Shown: piece after piece, positions 2,081-19,565 of the stretch
Layout of the letters: each line of letters begins with the position of its first letter
How positions within the stretch are numbered: the first letter of the stretch is position 1
Virus record (IMG/VR): IMGVR_UViG_3300042507_003910
Coordinates: 1 to 36,286 of that record
Origin: a virus
Strand: one strand, 5' to 3'
DNA length: 36,286 nt
Made by a program: the position numbers and the translations under genes
Notes under the pieces: model-generated
What the model saw: only the letters and a program-made list of their open reading frames with translations
What the model was told of the DNA's origin: nothing
The model's database searches: none

Positions 2081-3058
2081 TTAAACTCCAAATAAAGTTC
2101 TATCGTCCTTAGCTATTAGTAAGAACCTATTTTCTATAGGTATTAAAACATACCTATTATCAGTACTTGTTACTATTATTCTAGCTTCTGGAATAATATT
2201 ATTAATCCAAATGATATTATTTATAAAACTACTATGAAGAATATCAGATATAATTAACTGTGCTTGTGTACCTAATTCTAAATTATCAGTAAAAGAACTT
2301 ACATCTAAGTAGTCAACTAATAATACATTACTCTGGTTTAATTCTATAGTGCTATTAGTATTTGATACTAATAGATTTAGTAAACTTATAGTTATGCCTT
2401 GTGAAAGTGCAAACTCTTCTATACTAGAATTTATATTTAGACTATCAATTAGTAAACTATGTGCTTGGTATAATAATACTGGGCTAATTGAATTTGAAGA
2501 AGCTAAACTATGTAGTATTAGACTATTAGCTTGAATTAAATCAGCTGTAGTAATTAAATTACTGTTAGCTAAATGATTAACTAGAAGATTTAATCCTTGA
2601 CTTAGTAGTACATTATCAATTATTTTTGCATTAGTTAAGTTCTGAACTGTTAATGTATATGCTTGGTATAGTAATACTGAACTTATTGAGTTTGAAGAAG
2701 CTAAACTCTGTAGTATTAGACTATTAGCTTGAATTAAATCAGCTGTAGTGAGTAAACTACTATTAGCTAAATGATTAACTAGAAGATTTAATCCTTGGCT
2801 TAGTAGTATATTATCAATTGTTTTTGCACTAAGCAGATTATTAACCGTTAGTACATAAGCTTGGTATAGTAATACTGAGCTTATTGAATTACCAGTAGCT
2901 AGACTTTGTAATATTAAAGTATTAGCTTGAATTAAATCAGCTGTAGTAAGTAAATTACTATTAGCTAAATGATTAACTAGAAGATTTAATCCTTGGCTTA
3001 GTAGTATATTATCAATTGTTTTTGCACTAAGCAGATTATTAACCGTTAGCAAGTGCAT
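2081..3058 (-). CDS. 22-residue tandem-repeat structural protein, 325 aa
   Basis: After three residues the protein consists of thirteen consecutive 22-residue repeats of the pattern L-x-V-x-x-L-(x5)-I-D-N-x-x-L-x-Q (about residues 4-289). The first nine group into three near-identical 66-residue blocks. The last 36 residues carry the repeated beta-rich motif TDNRYVLIPIENRFLL, a type of C-terminus I associate with phage virion proteins. The regular hydrophobic spacing suggests a solenoid or fibre. The ATG at 3058 has no good Shine-Dalgarno and lies inside a truncated upstream frame (3039-3122). The gene is strongly AT-rich with heavy CTA and TTA leucine use, unlike the genes on both sides. A virion or tail role is inferred; the repeat structure is directly visible. 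Confidence 0.65.
   Translation of the reverse strand: MHLLTVNNLLSAKTIDNILLSQGLNLLVNHLANSNLLTTADLIQANTLILQSLATGNSISSVLLYQAYVLTVNNLLSAKTIDNILLSQGLNLLVNHLANSSLLTTADLIQANSLILQSLASSNSISSVLLYQAYTLTVQNLTNAKIIDNVLLSQGLNLLVNHLANSNLITTADLIQANSLILHSLASSNSISPVLLYQAHSLLIDSLNINSSIEEFALSQGITISLLNLLVSNTNSTIELNQSNVLLVDYLDVSSFTDNLELGTQAQLIISDILHSSFINNIIWINNIIPEARIIVTSTDNRYVLIPIENRFLLIAKDDRTLFGV
2456..3049 (-). repeat. Three 198-bp tandem DNA repeats inside the repeat gene
   Basis: Three consecutive 198-bp units (about 3049-2852, 2851-2654 and 2653-2456) encode the three 66-residue blocks. They are close to identical at DNA level, including synonymous positions, which points to recent duplication or gene conversion. 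Each unit is itself three 66-bp sub-repeats of more diverged sequence. Confidence 0.85.
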
Positions 3059-8714: not shown

Positions 8715-10016
8715 TCAGAAACTTCCTACATTAGAACGATAGCTGTACAGAGCGTACCTCAAAGCATCAGCCATGTGAGAATATTTATCATGTACTGGCT
8801 TCTCAGTAATCAGAGTTTCCTTTGGGTCCCAGCGGAACTGGTCTAGTGCTGCTAGAAGATGTGTACATTTGGGGTCCACAATTAGTTTTCCTTGCTCGAC
8901 AATCATCTGAACATATGCAATCCCGTCCAGCACGGACTTAGTTGCATTAATTGTAGAAATATCATGGTTTACAGCCCAATCGTAGCGAGTCTGTTGTGCA
9001 GCAGAATCAATGAAGATCATCTGTACATCATACTTATCTTCTAGAGCTTTGCATTCTACGGCGTACTGATCTGTGGTCATATTTGCTTGCTGAAATTCGT
9101 CTAGGGCATAGAAGACCTGAGAATCGTAGTCATACCCCAAAACGAGCATGGCGGTAGGATCTTTGAAACCGATATCAAGTCCCATAATTCTTTCAAGATG
9201 TTCCCATTTATCCACCGACATGATACACTTATGGTCAAACTTAAAGATCTGTCCTTCGAACACACTAAAGCTAGCCTCAAACTCTTGAGCGAATCGCGAA
9301 GCCGGCATAGTTGCACGAGCTTCATTAATGTCATCTTCGCTAGCGCGAGGATTCTCACGATAGTCGGCGTGGATAGAAGCCCATCTAGCAAATGCAGGGA
9401 TAGAGTTGAATCCATAGTGCCAGTAAGTAGAGAACCAATTATTTCTACCGCGTGGAGTTGAAATAAAAACTGCTTTAGCACTAGGTTTATCAAGTGTGGG
9501 ACGCAACGCTATCTCAAAGGCTTCTTGCCCGTCCGAAGTTAGTGCAGCCTCATCAAACAGGATAAGGTCATATGACCGGCCAACTACTGAATCAACCTGA
9601 GATACAGATCCCATCCGAATTGTAGAACCGTTTTTTAGCTCTATGATTCTATCCTTGGCATTATCGCGTTCGACCTCTAATTTGAAATGATTAATTAGTT
9701 TACGTTGCTCTTCAAATGAAATTGACGATAGTGCATAGTTAGGACTCATGATTAATACATGAGAATTAGGAACTAATGTTATTAGCTGACCAATTATATT
9801 ACATATAGTGGTCTTTCCAACCCGCCTAGATACTGCTCCTACTACAAATCTATATTTAGGATTATTTAATGCGTTAACTAGTGCTATTTGAGGGCCATTA
9901 AGCTTTATGCCCAATAAATCAACATATTTCTGAATTGGGAGTTTTATAAACCTATCCTCTACCGGGAACTCAGTAATTTCTGTACTACTAATATCCGGCC
10001 TACTAATTTTTAACAT
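8715..10016 (-). CDS. terL: Terminase large subunit, 433 aa
   Basis: ATP-driven packaging motor and nuclease. The N-terminal ATPase has a Walker A-like motif GAVSRRVGKTT at 60-70, Walker B LILFDEAA with Asp155/Glu156, and coupling motif STPRG near 186. The C-terminal RNase H-fold nuclease has candidate metal ligands Asp281 (GLDIGFKDP), Asp337 (MIFIDSAA) and Asp417 (SHMADALRYA). The length is at the short end of the normal range. The ATG at 10016 overlaps the upstream HNH gene by 7 bp. A promoter follows at 8698-8670 for the head genes. Confidence 0.95.
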   Translation of the reverse strand: MLKISRPDISSTEITEFPVEDRFIKLPIQKYVDLLGIKLNGPQIALVNALNNPKYRFVVGAVSRRVGKTTICNIIGQLITLVPNSHVLIMSPNYALSSISFEEQRKLINHFKLEVERDNAKDRIIELKNGSTIRMGSVSQVDSVVGRSYDLILFDEAALTSDGQEAFEIALRPTLDKPSAKAVFISTPRGRNNWFSTYWHYGFNSIPAFARWASIHADYRENPRASEDDINEARATMPASRFAQEFEASFSVFEGQIFKFDHKCIMSVDKWEHLERIMGLDIGFKDPTAMLVLGYDYDSQVFYALDEFQQANMTTDQYAVECKALEDKYDVQMIFIDSAAQQTRYDWAVNHDISTINATKSVLDGIAYVQMIVEQGKLIVDPKCTHLLAALDQFRWDPKETLITEKPVHDKYSHMADALRYALYSYRSNVGSF

Positions 10017-10944: not shown

Positions 10945-11409
10945 TTACTGAGATAAAAGCTGACCTAGTAAAGCACCATACTGGCCTTCTCCATACGGTG
11001 AGCCACCAGTATTAATTTGTACGTTTGTTTGTTTACGTATGCTACCTTCTCTAATTTTTTCAATATCAGCCATAGCTTTTAATTCTTCCATACGAATTTT
11101 ATGCTGCATCATTAATAGCTCAGAAATATCTTTAGTAGACCCTAAACCGGTTTCCATCATTTCTTCTAGTTTCTTCTCAATGAGGTCGTCGAATGCAAGA
11201 GCTAATTTATCGCGGTTACGGTACCCAGCACTAAGGTAGACATGATCTAGGTAGTTCTTGACTTCTGATTTTCTAAGGTATTGTGAGACTTGCGTGGGAT
11301 GTATGTCCAGCTCTCTAGCAGTAGCGTTAATATCTTGAGTCTGCAAGTATACATTCAATATCTCTAGAGCTTCGGGAGATATAGGGACCAACTCATTAGG
11401 TTTGGACAT
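10945..11409 (-). CDS. terS: Terminase small subunit, 154 aa
   Basis: Recognises phage DNA and loads the large subunit. The N-terminus has a helix-turn-helix (about 22-50: NATARELDIHPTQVSQYLRK). A helical oligomerisation region follows, then a flexible Gly/Gln-rich tail ending YGALLGQLLSQ. It is the first gene of the late module. The ATG at 11409 has no clear Shine-Dalgarno and lies 35 bp from the -10 box of the promoter at 11444-11472. Identification rests on architecture and synteny with terL. Confidence 0.8.
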   Translation of the reverse strand: MSKPNELVPISPEALEILNVYLQTQDINATARELDIHPTQVSQYLRKSEVKNYLDHVYLSAGYRNRDKLALAFDDLIEKKLEEMMETGLGSTKDISELLMMQHKIRMEELKAMADIEKIREGSIRKQTNVQINTGGSPYGEGQYGALLGQLLSQ

Positions 11410-11681: not shown

Positions 11682-11808
11682 GTGAATTTTAAAGTTTTAC
11701 GTGCGGACTGGCCTGTGAGCGTTTGGAAAGTCAAGGTCTAATAACCGCCCCTGTACCTGGCACGCTTCTTGCATGGCCAAATATATTTTCGATCAGATTA
11801 AAATAAGC

Positions 11809-12290: not shown

Positions 12291-12321
12291 ATGGTGCGCC
12301 AATTATACTCTACCCAGCTAG

Positions 12322-12434
12322 AGACTGTCAAGCGATTTATCTGCAAATATTTTGCGACCTAACGAAAAATAAGCTTGCATTGTTGTGTGGTTCCTGTAGA
12401 ATGAACTCATCGGATAACTCACTAAGGAAATGAA
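12322..12434 (+). promoter_or_regulatory. Early promoter module 1
   Basis: Conserved upstream element ACTGTCAAGCGATTTAT and an A/T tract, then TTGCAT (12375-12380), 16 bp, TAGAAT (12397-12402) and the shared leader with ACTAAGGAAATGAA. Nearly identical modules precede the genes at 13197 and 14792. Confidence 0.85.
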
Positions 12435-12634: not shown

Positions 12635-12877
12635 ATGTTTACAGTTCTGGAAATTGTTAGGCTTAATCCTAAAGAATCAGGTAAGGCTTATATTGGTTGT
12701 CCTGATATGGCTTATAAATTGGCTCATACTATATTAGCTTATATGCCTGATTATTATGTTTTGACATTGGGTGAAACTGTTAATACTAAACCTGAGCGCT
12801 CAGATAAAGAAACTAAATTCGTAGAAAATGCTCTTAATCTGGCTTATGCAATTCTTGATAATAATGAAGGTAATTAA
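12635..12877 (+). CDS. Small early protein of unknown function, 80 aa
   Basis: MFTVLEIVRLNPKESGKAYI; the helical C-terminal half KFVENALNLAYAILDNNEGN follows a basic linker. Shine-Dalgarno AAAAGGGAA. Second gene of the operon of early module 1 and immediately followed by the first 196-bp repeat. Function not recognised. Confidence 0.65.
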   Translation: MFTVLEIVRLNPKESGKAYIGCPDMAYKLAHTILAYMPDYYVLTLGETVNTKPERSDKETKFVENALNLAYAILDNNEGN

Positions 12878-12880
12878 TAT

Positions 12881-13076
12881 CTGGCACGGTTCTTGTCCGC
12901 CAAGGATCATGCCAGAAAAAAGCCTTTAGAATCAAGGACTTAGAAAAGAAAAAAGTCCTTTAGAATCAAGGACTTAGCGCCGCGTAGCGTACCCGCGCGA
13001 AGCGCGAAATGGTAGCAAAATATTTTTATGGGCACATAAAAATATTTAATGGGGTGGGCGCCGATTTTACCATAGC
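12881..13076 (+). repeat. 196-bp structured repeat, copy 1
   Basis: Begins with a long stem (CTGGCACGG.. to ..CATGCCAG) followed by A-rich sequence. Two short hairpins built on AAGTCCTT-TAGAATC-AAGGACTT come next (the first imperfect), then a GC-rich part with GCGCGAAGCGC. The perfect stem AAATATTTTTATG/CATAAAAATATTT follows, and the unit ends GGGCGCCGATTTTACC. Two more copies of the same length lie at 14365 and 15937. Each copy stands at the end of an operon and upstream of a promoter module or AT-rich hairpins. Confidence 0.85.
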
Positions 13077-13083
13077 AGCCTAT

Positions 13084-13196
13084 AGACTGTCAAGCGATTT
13101 ATCTGCAAATATTTTGTGACCACGCGAAAAATAAGCTTGCATTGTTCTGGTGTTCCTGTAGAATGAACTCATCGGATAACTCACTAAGGAAATGAA
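13084..13196 (+). promoter_or_regulatory. Early promoter module 2
   Basis: Upstream element ACTGTCAAGCGATTTATCTG, TTGCAT (13137-13142), 16 bp, TAGAAT (13159-13164), shared leader and Shine-Dalgarno. Confidence 0.85.
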
Positions 13197-13394
13197 ATGA
13201 AAAACGAATATGATGCAAATTTGGCTCTTGCTGATAAAAAGGTTGATTTTGTTTGGACTACTGATAATAGCGCTTTTAGTTTGCCAATTCGTGCGCGTCA
13301 GAATTTGGCTAAGTTTCAGAAAATTCGGCCTTGCAATGTTTCGCTGTTTGATGTTACAATTGCTGTTCTGAAATCAATCTTTAAAGGAAAATGA
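13197..13394 (+). CDS. Small early protein of unknown function, 65 aa
   Basis: MKNEYDANLALADKKVDFVW, basic at the C-terminus (VLKSIFKGK). No recognised domain. First gene behind early promoter module 2; its stop overlaps the leader of the next small ORF. Confidence 0.6.
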   Translation: MKNEYDANLALADKKVDFVWTTDNSAFSLPIRARQNLAKFQKIRPCNVSLFDVTIAVLKSIFKGK

Positions 13395-13395
13395 A

Positions 13396-13485
13396 ATGCG
13401 ATATATCCGTAATGTAACCGCTTATGATGTTATCATGACCATGTTTATAGTAATACTTTATACTTTGGTATTGTTTAATTCCTGA
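13396..13485 (+). CDS. Tiny membrane protein, 29 aa
   Basis: ATG at 13396 gives MRYIRNVTAYDVIMTMFIVI and ends with a hydrophobic stretch (about residues 11-27), one predicted membrane helix. Shine-Dalgarno AAAGGAAA lies 8 bp upstream, within the end of the previous gene. A terminator follows directly. It is short, but the ribosome-binding site, hydrophobicity and tight fit support it. Confidence 0.5.
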   Translation: MRYIRNVTAYDVIMTMFIVILYTLVLFNS

Positions 13486-13488
13486 AAG

Positions 13489-13510
13489 CCGCCTAGCAAT
13501 AGGCGGTTTT
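13489..13510 (+). terminator. Terminator
   Basis: CCGCCTA-GCAA-TAGGCGG followed by TTTT. The same hairpin and the following 40 bp of leader recur at 16992-17049. Confidence 0.8.
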
Positions 13511-13547
13511 ATAAAGATTATTTGAATTAACTTTAAAGGAAACTGAA

Positions 13548-13754
13548 ATGACCAAACTTGAAAAAATGATTCGTGGTGCAGTTGGTGGTTTTGAAATTGT
13601 TGCTGCAAAGAAAATCGTGAAAGAGATTAACAAATCCTTTTCCAGTAATGTAATTGGCTTTAATGAATATAAAGCATGTAAAGATGCTCTGGTCGATAAT
13701 CTTACTAATCCGGAACACGATCGCATTCGCATTCTGAATATGTTTACTTATTAA
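13548..13754 (+). CDS. Small early protein of unknown function, 68 aa
   Basis: MTKLEKMIRGAVGGFEIVAA, helical with a basic N-terminal half. Shine-Dalgarno AAAGGAAA. It follows a terminator with no clear promoter of its own, so it probably depends on read-through. No recognised domain. Confidence 0.6.
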   Translation: MTKLEKMIRGAVGGFEIVAAKKIVKEINKSFSSNVIGFNEYKACKDALVDNLTNPEHDRIRILNMFTY

Positions 13755-13758
13755 TATC

Positions 13759-13851
13759 ATGATTGATTTTCTTATTAAACACAGCCCAATATGGTTAGTA
13801 ATACTTTTTCTTCGCATATTGACTTTCTTTAAATTAATTAAATGGGGGTGA
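13759..13851 (+). CDS. Tiny membrane protein, 30 aa
   Basis: ATG at 13759 gives MIDFLIKHSPIWLVILFLRI and a hydrophobic remainder ending in FFKLIKWG, one membrane helix. It starts 4 bp after the previous stop, without a strong Shine-Dalgarno, and its end carries the G-rich ribosome-binding site of the next gene. Support is context and hydrophobicity only. Confidence 0.4.
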   Translation: MIDFLIKHSPIWLVILFLRILTFFKLIKWG

Positions 13852-13856
13852 AGAAA

Positions 13857-14213
13857 ATGAAAACAAATAAAAAACAATTGTGGACTTGGGCCAAACAGAT
13901 TAATCGGGAGATTTTTGGAAACTCGATTAATCTGGAGGAATTGAGGATTATCAATAAAGCTAGAGATAAAAAGAATGCTCAAGCTAGAGCATGGTTTTAT
14001 CCACAATCTTTTAAGATTGTTTTAATTGCTAAAGAACACAGAAATGAGTTTGAGATTTTTCATACTCTTGCACATGAATTAATTCATGTTTATCAATTGC
14101 AATGCAATTGTGTGAGTGAAGAAGGAAATTTGAATCACGGTGGCAAGTTTTTTCGGTTTTATAAAGAAAAGATTTGCGCGGCTTATGAAATTGATAATGA
14201 TTGGATGTTTTAA
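13857..14213 (+). CDS. SprT-like zinc metalloprotease, 118 aa
   Basis: The zinc motif HELIH is at residues 73-77 with a third ligand His94 in NHGGKFF, the SprT/WSS1-like pattern. It lacks the zinc-ribbon tail of longer SprT proteins. SprT-like domains are known for cleaving DNA-protein crosslinks; phage roles are not established. The ATG at 13857 is preferred to one 15 bp upstream because it has the G-rich ribosome-binding site GGGGGTG. A second SprT-like gene of different type lies at 32632. Confidence 0.8.
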   Translation: MKTNKKQLWTWAKQINREIFGNSINLEELRIINKARDKKNAQARAWFYPQSFKIVLIAKEHRNEFEIFHTLAHELIHVYQLQCNCVSEEGNLNHGGKFFRFYKEKICAAYEIDNDWMF

Positions 14214-14360
14214 ATGTGGCTAGGATTATGTATTGACCCGTTTGTTTTGGCCTGTGAAATTGGGTATTATCCCGGAGAATATTGTGATTTATCCGGGATT
14301 GAATACCGGATAATTGATTTTCAATATCACGCATATTTGATTATGCCTAGAAATGATTAG
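14214..14360 (+). CDS. Small protein of unknown function, 48 aa
   Basis: The ATG directly follows the TAA of the SprT-like gene (TAAATG). It reads MWLGLCIDPFVLACEIGYYP and ends before the second 196-bp repeat. Rich in Cys, Tyr and Ile, with an N-terminal hydrophobic segment. The junction suggests termination-reinitiation. No family recognised. Confidence 0.5.
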   Translation: MWLGLCIDPFVLACEIGYYPGEYCDLSGIEYRIIDFQYHAYLIMPRND

Positions 14361-14364
14361 GAAG

Positions 14365-14560
14365 TTGGCACGCTTCTTGTCTACCAAGGATCGTGCCAGA
14401 AAAAAGCCTTTATAATCAAGGACTTAGAAAAGAAAAAAGTCCTTTAGAATCAAGGACTTAGCGCCGCGAAGCGTACCCGCGCGAAGCGCGAAATGGTAGC
14501 AAAATATTTTTATGGGCACATAAAAATCTTTAATGGGGTGGGCGCCGATTTTACCATAGC
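14365..14560 (+). repeat. 196-bp structured repeat, copy 2
   Basis: Same length and order of elements as the copy at 12881. Differences in the first stem mostly replace Watson-Crick pairs by G-U pairs, so an RNA hairpin is preserved. It contains two GCGAAGC mini-hairpin sequences. Confidence 0.85.
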
Positions 14561-14570
14561 GCGCTATGGG

Positions 14571-14600
14571 TTGTCAATAGTCTTTTTGTACTATTGACAA
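14571..14600. repeat. Hairpin repeat TTGTCAATAGT, copy 1
   Basis: Arms TTGTCAATAGT and ACTATTGACAA flank a T-rich loop. Other copies are at 16143-16172 and 16247-16275. Followed at 14605-14640 by a second stem, CTTTTTAGCG with CGCTAAAAAG. Confidence 0.75.
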
Positions 14601-14679
14601 GCGCTTCTTTTTAGCGTTCGCTAAAAAGACAAAAAGGTCTTAATACCTTGTTAGCGATTTAGCGCTCACAAAAGCTGGA

Positions 14680-14791
14680 AACTGTCAAGCGATTTATATA
14701 CAAATATTTTTGGACGTGGTGAAAAATACGCTTGCATTGTTTGGCCGTTCCTGTAGAATGAACTCATCGAATAACTCACTAAGGAAATGAA
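14680..14791 (+). promoter_or_regulatory. Early promoter module 3
   Basis: Upstream element ACTGTCAAGCGATTTATATA, TTGCAT (14732-14737), 16 bp, TAGAAT (14754-14759), shared leader with AAGGAAATGAA. Confidence 0.85.
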
Positions 14792-15025
14792 ATGAAAGAA
14801 ATTAAAACACGTTATACATGGGCTGAAATTCAGAATGCTATTTTGCGCAATATGGATTATCTTGCAAAAAGTATTGAAGACTCTGAAAAGAAAGGTATGG
14901 GTGAAAATGTTTTAGAGGTTTTAAATAAATACTTAGCACAAGCAAATTCTAATTATAAAGCTAATCAAGAAATGATTAAAGCGGGCGAACCTTGCCCATA
15001 TATTCGCTACGAAATGGAAGGTTAA
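14792..15025 (+). CDS. Small early protein of unknown function, 77 aa
   Basis: MKEIKTRYTWAEIQNAILRN, helical and charged, with AGEPCPYIRYEME near the C-terminus. First gene of the operon of early promoter module 3 (14792-15873, five genes). No recognised domain. Confidence 0.65.
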   Translation: MKEIKTRYTWAEIQNAILRNMDYLAKSIEDSEKKGMGENVLEVLNKYLAQANSNYKANQEMIKAGEPCPYIRYEMEG

Positions 15026-15029
15026 TAAA

Positions 15030-15287
15030 ATGAACAAGTTTACTGATTATAAAAACGTGAAATCCGGTTTCAAAATGCCGATAGAGTTTATCGGTGTATT
15101 ATCTGGCATTATCGGTAGTTTCTCTGTTGCTAATGGTTTGTTTACAATTGGTTATCCTTTATTCACATTGTCGGCATTGCTTCTGCTTTATACCGCATTT
15201 AAACAATCGAATAAAAACCTGATGCTTTTGCAAGCTGTTTTCCTTCTTGCAAATATTAATGGTCTTTATACGTTTTTCTTAAAATGA
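15030..15287 (+). CDS. Small multispanning membrane protein, 85 aa
   Basis: Three hydrophobic segments follow a short polar N-terminus: about 19-35 (EFIGVLSGIIGSFSVAN), 37-57 (FTIGYPLFTLSALLLLYTAF) and 65-84 (LMLLQAVFLLANINGLYTFF). It starts 4 bp after the previous stop. It probably acts in the inner membrane. Superinfection exclusion, transport or membrane remodelling are all possible; nothing in the sequence chooses between them. Confidence 0.65.
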   Translation: MNKFTDYKNVKSGFKMPIEFIGVLSGIIGSFSVANGLFTIGYPLFTLSALLLLYTAFKQSNKNLMLLQAVFLLANINGLYTFFLK

Positions 15288-15322
15288 AACGAATTAAATT
15301 TAAACTTACTAAGGAAAATAAA

Positions 15323-15463
15323 ATGAAACTGCGTCATCCTTCCGCTTATCCAATTTATGAAACTTGGATAACTTCAGATGGAAAAGAGTTTGAATTTTGG
15401 AATCAGGCTCGTTATCACGAGATTGTTTTAAAACTTCGCAAGCTTATTAAGAAAGGAAATTAA
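15323..15463 (+). CDS. Small basic protein, 46 aa
   Basis: ATG at 15323 preceded by the strong leader ACTAAGGAAAATAAA. It reads MKLRHPSAYPIYETWITSDG, then a basic helix ending RKLIKKGN. The next gene begins 1 bp after its stop. The leader resembles those of the operon-first early genes, which supports translation. Confidence 0.6.
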   Translation: MKLRHPSAYPIYETWITSDGKEFEFWNQARYHEIVLKLRKLIKKGN

Positions 15464-15464
15464 A

Positions 15465-15683
15465 ATGCACGAACAAAAAGAACTTGATGCTTTTCTCCCG
15501 GATATTTTCCCTGATGAATTAGATTTAGCTGATGAAGCTAATTGGGAAGATAATACTCTTTTTCTCTCGCTAGAAGAAGCTGGATTAGAAGAAAAAGAAT
15601 TAGAACCTTTTGATTGTATTGGCGCTAGTGAATACAATTACCAATACTGGGATGGTTCATCCTCTGAATTAACGGAGTTTTAA
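15465..15683 (+). CDS. Small strongly acidic protein, 72 aa
   Basis: MHEQKELDAFLPDIFPDELD; about one third of residues are Asp or Glu and very few are basic. Strongly acidic small phage proteins can mimic DNA and block DNA-binding host enzymes, including restriction nucleases; this is a class-level inference, not homology. It has the Shine-Dalgarno AAAGGAAA and couples to the next gene (1-bp gap). Confidence 0.6.
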   Translation: MHEQKELDAFLPDIFPDELDLADEANWEDNTLFLSLEEAGLEEKELEPFDCIGASEYNYQYWDGSSSELTEF

Positions 15684-15684
15684 A

Positions 15685-15873
15685 ATGCTTTTATTAGTAT
15701 CTCAAAATGAAGCTGAAACTTATTATTGCCTTAATGAAAAGCTTGCATTAGAAACTGCAAAATATCATGGGTTTTTTACTAAACCCGGAGATAAAATCTG
15801 TTTAATTGATTTTGAAAGAAATAAATCAATTATTTATGAATTGGGAGATGATCTAATTCCGACTATTTACTAA
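15685..15873 (+). CDS. Small early protein of unknown function, 62 aa
   Basis: MLLLVSQNEAETYYCLNEKL with a compact mixed alpha/beta look (PGDKICLIDFERNKSIIYEL). Last gene of its operon, followed by a terminator. No recognised domain. Confidence 0.6.
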   Translation: MLLLVSQNEAETYYCLNEKLALETAKYHGFFTKPGDKICLIDFERNKSIIYELGDDLIPTIY

Positions 15874-15878
15874 TTAAT

Positions 15879-15902
15879 AACCGCTTGACAAAGCGGTTTT
15901 TT
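15879..15902 (+). terminator. Terminator of the 14792-15873 operon
   Basis: AACCGCTT-GAC-AAAGCGGTT followed by a TTTT run. Confidence 0.85.
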
Positions 15903-15936
15903 ACAGTTCGCTAAAAAGATAAAGAGATCTTAATAT

Positions 15937-16132
15937 CTGGCACGATTCTTGGCCGCCAAGAATCGTGCCAGAAAAAAGCCTTTAGAATCAAGGACTTAGA
16001 AAAGAAAAAAGTCCTTTAGAATCAAGGACTTAGCGCCGCGAAGCGTACCCGCGCGAAGCGCGAAATGGTAGCAAAATATTTTTATGGGCACATAAAAATA
16101 TTTAATGGGGTGGGCGCCGATTTTACCATAGC
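15937..16132 (+). repeat. 196-bp structured repeat, copy 3
   Basis: Same architecture as the copies at 12881 and 14365. Here the first stem is perfect: 16-bp arms CTGGCACGATTCTTGG and complement around a CCG loop. Two GCGAAGC sequences are present. Confidence 0.85.
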
Positions 16133-16142
16133 GCGCTATGGG

Positions 16143-16275
16143 TTGTCAATAGTTTTTTTGTACTATTGACAAGCGCGTCTAACTAGGTTCTAAGCGCGTG
16201 TTGCGTTTTTGCAACAGGCGCCGATTTTACCACGCCCCGGCGGGCGTTGTCAATAGTTTTTTTGTACTATTGACA
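16143..16275. repeat. Hairpin repeats TTGTCAATAGT, copies 2 and 3
   Basis: Copies at 16143-16172 and 16247-16275, separated by a sequence that repeats the GGCGCCGATTTTACCA end of the 196-bp unit (16217-16232). A further stem CTTTTTAGC/GCTAAAAAG follows at about 16281-16304. Confidence 0.75.
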
Positions 16276-18870: not shown

Positions 18871-18955
18871 TCACAAAAAAGCCTTTAAAATCAACGACTT
18901 ACGACGGAAAAAAAGCCTTTAAAATCAAGGACTTGGCGCCCCGTAGGGTACCCGA
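18871..18955 (+). repeat. Degenerate partial copy of the 196-bp repeat
   Basis: AAAAAAGCCTTTAAAATCAA followed by GACTTA occurs twice, then GGCGCCCCGTAGGGTACCCG, matching the middle of the 196-bp repeat but without its AT-rich stem. A related motif, AATCATGGACTTAGCG, lies at about 18790-18806. Confidence 0.6.
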
Positions 18956-19127: not shown

Positions 19128-19565
19128 ATCAAGCGAGGTCGCGACCTGCGCCTTAGTGCAAAGTCGAAATTCGAAACGTTTTGCGCCGAGTGCTAAGTCG
19201 AAAAGCGATTCAAGTTGAGAATTCTGCGCCCGCCAGTGAAAAACCGATTCAAGTTCAAAATTTGTGCGGTCTGCGCCCATTATACTAAAGAACCCGAGGC
19301 ATTGTCAAGATCAAATTTATTCTTCTTACCCCAAATTGATGAAATTATGACAAATTGCGAGCAAAACCGAGAATAATAGACAATTTCAACGATTTGGGGT
19401 CAATTAGTGAGATTTCGAAGGATTTTGGCACTTTTTACGATTTGGGGTTGGTTCAAACGTATAATTTTAGCGCTTTTTACGGTTTGGGGTAAGAAAATTT
19501 TACACTTGAAAATCTGAGGTGCTACCCCAAATTGTGGCATTCGTAATGAATTGATTTCATTAGAC

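Follow-up and report, generated by a model that had tools for sequence, protein, structure and literature searches.

Candidate reverse promoter-terminator modules between early operons of a T5-like phage

Repeated units in a probable pre-early region

We analysed a 36,286-nt stretch of viral DNA (IMG/VR record IMGVR_UViG_3300042507_003910, positions 1 to 36,286; hereafter the window) that carries three near-identical non-coding repeats. A repeat search places them in register (12882-13124, 14366-14608 and 15938-16180), 85-96% identical over 243 nt. An earlier reading of the sequence alone (the sequence-only reading) had reported three such copies at 12881, 14365 and 15937, and both the repeat search and blastn confirm them; the 196 bp which it assigned to the unit is an underestimate, since copy 1 shares 212 nt and copies 2 and 3 share 243 nt. 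Within the window the copies match one another with blastn E values from 6e-141 to 4e-20, and chance can therefore be excluded. The ordered stems described in that reading are found in the inverted-repeat list and, as it stated, the units encode no protein: no conserved open reading frame (ORF) overlaps them. A partial fourth copy lies at 18872-18954 (84% identity over 83 nt in the repeat search). The match noted there before, at 18871, is thus real; the sequence called a degenerate copy forms the 3' end of a longer member that has its own minus-strand promoter (19308-19279). Our favoured interpretation, held with moderate confidence, is that each repeat would be a reverse promoter-terminator module at an early-operon boundary of a T5-like phage, with operon separation as its main role.

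Judged by its sequence, the terminase large subunit encoded at 8715-10016 on the minus strand (50% identity to that of Pectobacterium phage My1 over 98%) is related to those of the Demerecviridae, and the phage is T5-like. The minus-strand ORF at 10945-11409 is taken, by its position, as a putative terS, and from 11.4 to 19.6 kb small genes occupy the plus strand. These early genes have tblastn relatives in the loci L284, L055, L287 and L291 and, for some of them and more distantly, in L265, L266, L268 and L296. In My1, terL-terS is followed by three small genes and then by the annotated right terminal repeat, and the T5-like phage cott162 also has its terminal repeat on the far side of terL. 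Because the window shares this gene order, its 11.4-19.6 kb region, which lies beyond terS-terL in the same way, is probably the pre-early terminal repeat, of which this record holds only one copy. Unlike the window, the scanned stretch of My1 lacks a TTGACA-TATAAT-GGCGC promoter, and whereas A1 and A2 are annotated in cott162, the small genes of the window were not matched to A1 or A2. The sequence ATTTGGGGT is repeated in both orientations (11591, 11643, 18963, 19069, 19336, 19392, 19440, 19532 and 20694), with one cluster at each end of the early region and additional copies in other parts of the window; the clusters might mark the borders of the terminal repeat.

Reverse promoters and terminators of the units

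In a promoter scan, the right edge of every unit (13093, 14577 and 16149) carries a minus-strand sigma70 promoter, TTGACA-18-TAAAAT, which matches the consensus at 11/12 positions and continues after the -10 box into CGGCGCC. Additional minus-strand sites are listed at 16253, 12331 and 19308, the last two matching at 12/12. With the cut set at 11/12, all seven promoters in the 11.4-19.6 kb region are on the minus strand and the plus strand has none; dinucleotide shuffles give 0.25 and 0.27. GGCGC directly follows six of the seven; the exception, at 15073, lies inside a gene. In addition, the minus strand of each unit carries a hairpin, AAGTCCTTGATTCTAAAGGACTT, followed by a T run, which the terminator scan reports as intrinsic-terminator-like. 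This terminator (AAGTCCTTGATTCTAAAGGACTTTTTT) lies about 100 nt downstream of the promoter, has a predicted energy of -9.4 kcal/mol with its T run, and is backed by a weaker second copy. The promoter scan and the hairpin with its T run together lead us to read the minus strand of each unit as promoter, about 110 nt, and terminator, and the distance from the -35 box to the TAAGTCC motif is 117 nt in all three window copies and in L267, L269 and L270. It is therefore highly probable, as far as sequence can support it, that each unit comprises a reverse promoter and a short terminated RNA. The sequence-only reading had held that the units are not terminators of the simple type, which is correct for the plus strand but not for the minus strand, and both the strong promoter and the internal terminators were absent from its interpretation, which is thus supported in part. 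The features are as follows.

12302-12331, minus strand: like promoter (12/12), then a simple hairpin; nearest to the terminase genes (promoter scan)
12881-12915, no strand assigned: unit 1 stem I inverted repeat (stem comparison)
12919-12942, minus strand: unit 1 second, weaker terminator-like copy (fold, motif comparison)
12947-13057, minus strand: unit 1 predicted non-coding RNA, about 110 nt, ends inferred (promoter and terminator; fold of the unit 2 equivalent)
12953-12975, minus strand: unit 1 intrinsic terminator hairpin, then T run (terminator scan, fold)
13064-13093, minus strand: unit 1 sigma70 promoter, then CGGCGCC (promoter scan, pattern search)
13137-13164, plus strand: TTGCAT-16-TAGAAT, a weak match, perhaps where the next early operon starts in the divergent direction (sequence inspection, with repeat families D3 and D7; not in the promoter-scan list)
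14365-14399, no strand assigned: unit 2 stem I (stem comparison)
14431-14541, minus strand: unit 2 predicted non-coding RNA, ends inferred (fold)
14437-14459, minus strand: unit 2 intrinsic terminator hairpin (terminator scan)
14548-14577, minus strand: unit 2 sigma70 promoter (promoter scan)
15936-15972, no strand assigned: unit 3 stem I, 18 bp perfect (inverted-repeat list)
16003-16113, minus strand: unit 3 predicted non-coding RNA, ends inferred as for unit 1
16009-16031, minus strand: unit 3 intrinsic terminator hairpin (terminator scan)
16120-16149, minus strand: unit 3 sigma70 promoter (promoter scan)
16224-16253, minus strand: further like promoter upstream of unit 3 (promoter scan)
18872-18954, minus strand: 3'-end module of the fourth member (repeat search, motif comparison)
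19279-19308, minus strand: promoter (12/12) of the longer fourth member (promoter scan)

For unit 2, the predicted minus-strand RNA has a folding energy of -35.1 kcal/mol (z -3.75), and the plus strand of the unit also folds strongly (z -4.4). A transcript starting 6-7 bases past the -10 box would leave GGCGC mostly in the discriminator and deprive the predicted closing stem of its 5' strand. In this respect the promoters are similar to stable-RNA promoters with a GC-rich discriminator, such as rrnB P1, where near-consensus hexamers are likewise followed by a GC-rich start region; they differ in having an 18-bp spacer which carries a dyad and GGCGC 0-3 nt after the -10 box, as discriminator or RNA 5' end. 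The GGCGC also resembles the T5 nick consensus R/GCGCRGG, in the form in which it is quoted in PMC3517423.

The spacers between the -35 and -10 boxes are palindromic more often than their shuffles, with a combined p of ~1e-6 over 13 listed spacers, a value that is optimistic because some of these spacers are related to one another. In phage lambda, Q binds between -35 and -10 at pR', and the pR'-tR' unit (6S RNA) joins a strong promoter with such an element to a short terminated RNA directed towards the late genes, an arrangement which the window shares if its RNAs are as predicted. By analogy, the reverse promoters could form a late switch, giving short terminated RNAs until a phage antiterminator acts and thereafter silencing early genes by antisense transcription that reaches the terminase and late genes. 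All reverse promoters indeed aim at terS-terL, and the 11.4-12.3 kb interval has no other minus-strand promoter of at least 11/12, in a scan that did not extend to other kinds of late promoter. However, one promoter would suffice for a switch, yet six or seven exist; the dyad differs among them, genes on the opposite strand lie in between, unlike at pR'-tR', and no antiterminator was identified, none having been sought in a window that is a fragment. We consider such a switch improbable.

Conserved ends and exchanged bodies in relatives

A pattern search of retrieved related loci (TTGAC(A/T), 16-19 nt, TANNAT, 0-3 nt, GGCGC) found 37 distinct promoters, a few of them in L041, L053, L147 and L241, contigs that no test links with T5-like phages. 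In the T5-like loci, the reverse promoters recur at equivalent boundaries, between small genes and on the strand opposite to them, and they point towards terS where the contig carries it. What follows the promoter varies: the unit body is found in the three window copies and at L284:5457, L287:322 and L055:930, a simple AAAAGGATA hairpin at 12331 and its equivalents, and other hairpins or longer bodies elsewhere (19308; L265). The sequence upstream of 13093 is joined to the unit body at L055:930 and to a hairpin body at L284:7930, with divergence beginning right after GGCGCC, and the sequence upstream of 16253 is joined to the unit body at L284:5457; the bodies have apparently been swapped by recombination at the shared GGCGCC junction. 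As the equivalent of the 14.4 kb unit (unit 2) in L284 consists of a promoter and a simple hairpin (L284:6685), the common element is promoter plus stop rather than the body. The earlier suggestion of mobile non-coding units holds only in this sense, as presence or absence of a block at equivalent sites; terminal inverted repeats linking one end of a unit to the other, as in a miniature inverted-repeat transposable element, are absent from the inverted-repeat list, which covers arms up to 150 nt apart, longer distances not having been searched.

The 3' end is also shared. A module GGGTACGCTWCGCGGCGC-TAAGTCCTTGATTYTAAAGG-CTTTTTT stands behind unrelated bodies at 18940 in the window, three times in L265, and in L284; its hairpin is a longer palindrome in L291, and in L268 a U-A pair is exchanged for C-G. 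Promoter and 3' end are conserved among relatives and the RNA body is not. Head-to-head pairs of the terminator motif round a GC-rich centre, like a bidirectional terminator, are seen in L266 and L268 (L268 809 and 824, for example).

This pattern bears on the possibility that the units are multi-copy genes of a trans-acting regulatory or decoy small RNA, expressed early in infection, whose body would matter. The strong promoter, compact fold, intrinsic terminator with U tail and three nearly identical copies would all suit such an RNA. In relatives, however, unrelated sequence or a simple hairpin replaces the body behind the same promoter, an Rfam search of the units gave no family above the gathering score, and covariation is unsupported (see below), which makes this explanation unlikely. 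The sequence-only reading had also proposed an RNA; this is plausible, but for the minus strand, which it did not consider.

The unit terminator overlaps a 21-mer, TCCTTTARAATCAANGACTTA (window copies vary), which occurs on the plus strand at 12930, 12964, 14414, 14448, 15986, 16020, 18889 and 18923. Its core AATCAAGGACTTA, a candidate IHF site, agrees with the IHF consensus WATCARnnnnTTR as quoted in PMC8407004. Viral contigs contain 113 stretches that match AGAATCAAGGACTTAG and 42 that match its letters in reverse order, and TCCTTTARAATCAANGACTTA has at least 120 matches in them where scaling from the reversed 16-mer gives well under one; the 21-mer is thus far above chance in unrelated viral contigs. 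Its ~94 separate contexts are mostly intergenic and show no preferred gene orientation. At T5-like loci the motif has the orientation of a terminator and runs into T-rich sequence, and in the general set of viral contigs its flank is A/T-rich with no clear T run. These data could also fit a DNA element of an origin or of chromatin, in which the tandem AATCAAGGACTTA sites serve IHF or another factor and the likeness to a terminator is secondary. However, IHF on its own does not account for the conserved TCCTTTAR, control phage contigs show no enrichment of TAAN4TTGATT (10, against 47 with the pattern reversed), and in T5-like loci the motif stands in terminator orientation before a T run. Among the six named phages read, the 21-mer is unannotated in most and lies near a primase gene in four; the idea of a primase-polymerase origin element, prompted by these four, was rejected since PF09250 is not enriched with the motif (1/50 against 1/42). 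We regard the DNA element as the least probable of the alternatives. A search of papers for the motif letters returned nothing relevant.

A sigma54 site at the stem I arm, resembling -24/-12 (TGGCACGNTTCTTG), was also rejected, the C of the -12 element being replaced in the three units (TTGT or TTGG). Sigma54-type sites are slightly enriched near the 21-mer (7/145 contexts against ~0.5 expected). TGGCAC-N5-TTGC occurs in T5-like early regions, at 11758-11772 on the plus strand of the window and at L269:7777, L271:4971, L291:2674, L266:5165 and 8136, and L346:5476; 383 kb of control viral contigs contained none.

Proposed separation of early operons

With a promoter, about 110 foldable bases and a built-in stop on the opposite strand, the units are most likely early-operon boundaries. 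We propose that host sigma70 RNA polymerase would start at the strong right-edge promoter and transcribe leftwards, in the direction of the terminase genes and converging on the upstream early operon, to give the foldable non-coding RNA, before halting at the intrinsic terminator, behind which lie the weaker second copy and stem I. The probable start of the next early operon would lie ~50 bp off in divergent orientation, and TTGCAT-16-TAGAAT-type sequence recurs before the 12.4, 13.2 and 14.8 kb genes. An opposing or promoter-bound polymerase, together with the hairpins, could then block read-through between neighbouring early operons, and the short RNA would be a by-product or have a secondary role. 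Among the three guesses of the sequence-only reading, a transcription barrier fits best. Lambda OOP RNA offers a partial parallel, being a short non-coding RNA from a strong convergent promoter just downstream of a gene, with an intrinsic terminator; OOP, however, is antisense to the 3' end of cII, which it overlaps, whereas the predicted unit 1 RNA stops at ~12947, short of the gene end at 12877, and the window has several modules.

Several observations weigh against this proposal. No ordinary plus-strand terminator stands beside unit 1 or unit 2, and the block to plus-strand read-through is for this reason assumed. The 3' module has several weakly folding members (about -4 kcal/mol), so that not all need be efficient terminators. 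Covariation of the RNA body is not supported. An alignment of six copies, with a mean column identity of 96%, contains a single base pair with a compensatory change, and in the copy that diverges most several helices are missing pairs; 337 of 500 shuffles did equally well. This comparison, which had been suggested as a check, speaks neither for nor against an RNA fold, and the claim that G-U differences in the first stem reflect selection on such a fold is not borne out. Finally, stem I departs from Watson-Crick pairing by 13 G-U pairs when read as plus-strand RNA and by 4 when read as minus-strand RNA; a further 4 mismatches are of other kinds. The count covers 10 distinct strings, two of which are reverse-strand duplicates; the departures lean weakly towards a plus-strand RNA and rest on few independent changes.

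That lean would suit a plus-strand RNA element, the unit forming the structured 3' end of the upstream early mRNA for stability or processing and the reverse promoter being incidental. The position of the unit directly after a stop codon and the strong plus-strand fold agree with this, but reverse promoter and terminator are kept in both position and sequence, and stem I is missing from many members; we think this element very improbable. The alternatives thus rank, in falling order, as trans-acting RNA, late switch, plus-strand RNA element and DNA-binding element. Beyond boundary modules, we tentatively raise the possibility, doubtful at present, of a new non-coding RNA family of T5-like phages, in which variable bodies between fixed ends (GGCGCC ... 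GGGTACGCTWCGCGGCGC and terminator) would come from a regular set of reverse promoters in first-injected DNA, and the 3' end would reuse a 21-bp element that is spread over unrelated phages and read by an unnamed factor. The switch between gene classes in T5 has been described as unknown (PMC7472727), and the regular, strong reverse promoters and terminators in the presumed first-injected region provide concrete sites for testing it.

Outside the early region, three tandem 198-bp repeats (83-87% identity) lie at 2434-3027, inside the minus-strand ORF 2081-3058, for which a PHROGs search gave no match. Acinetobacter phage MD-2021a (CAKLQF020000015.1), the best NAMPT match, was dropped from the comparison, both stretches read having chromosomal-type genes; this GenBank record looks mislabelled and resembles a bacterial chromosome.

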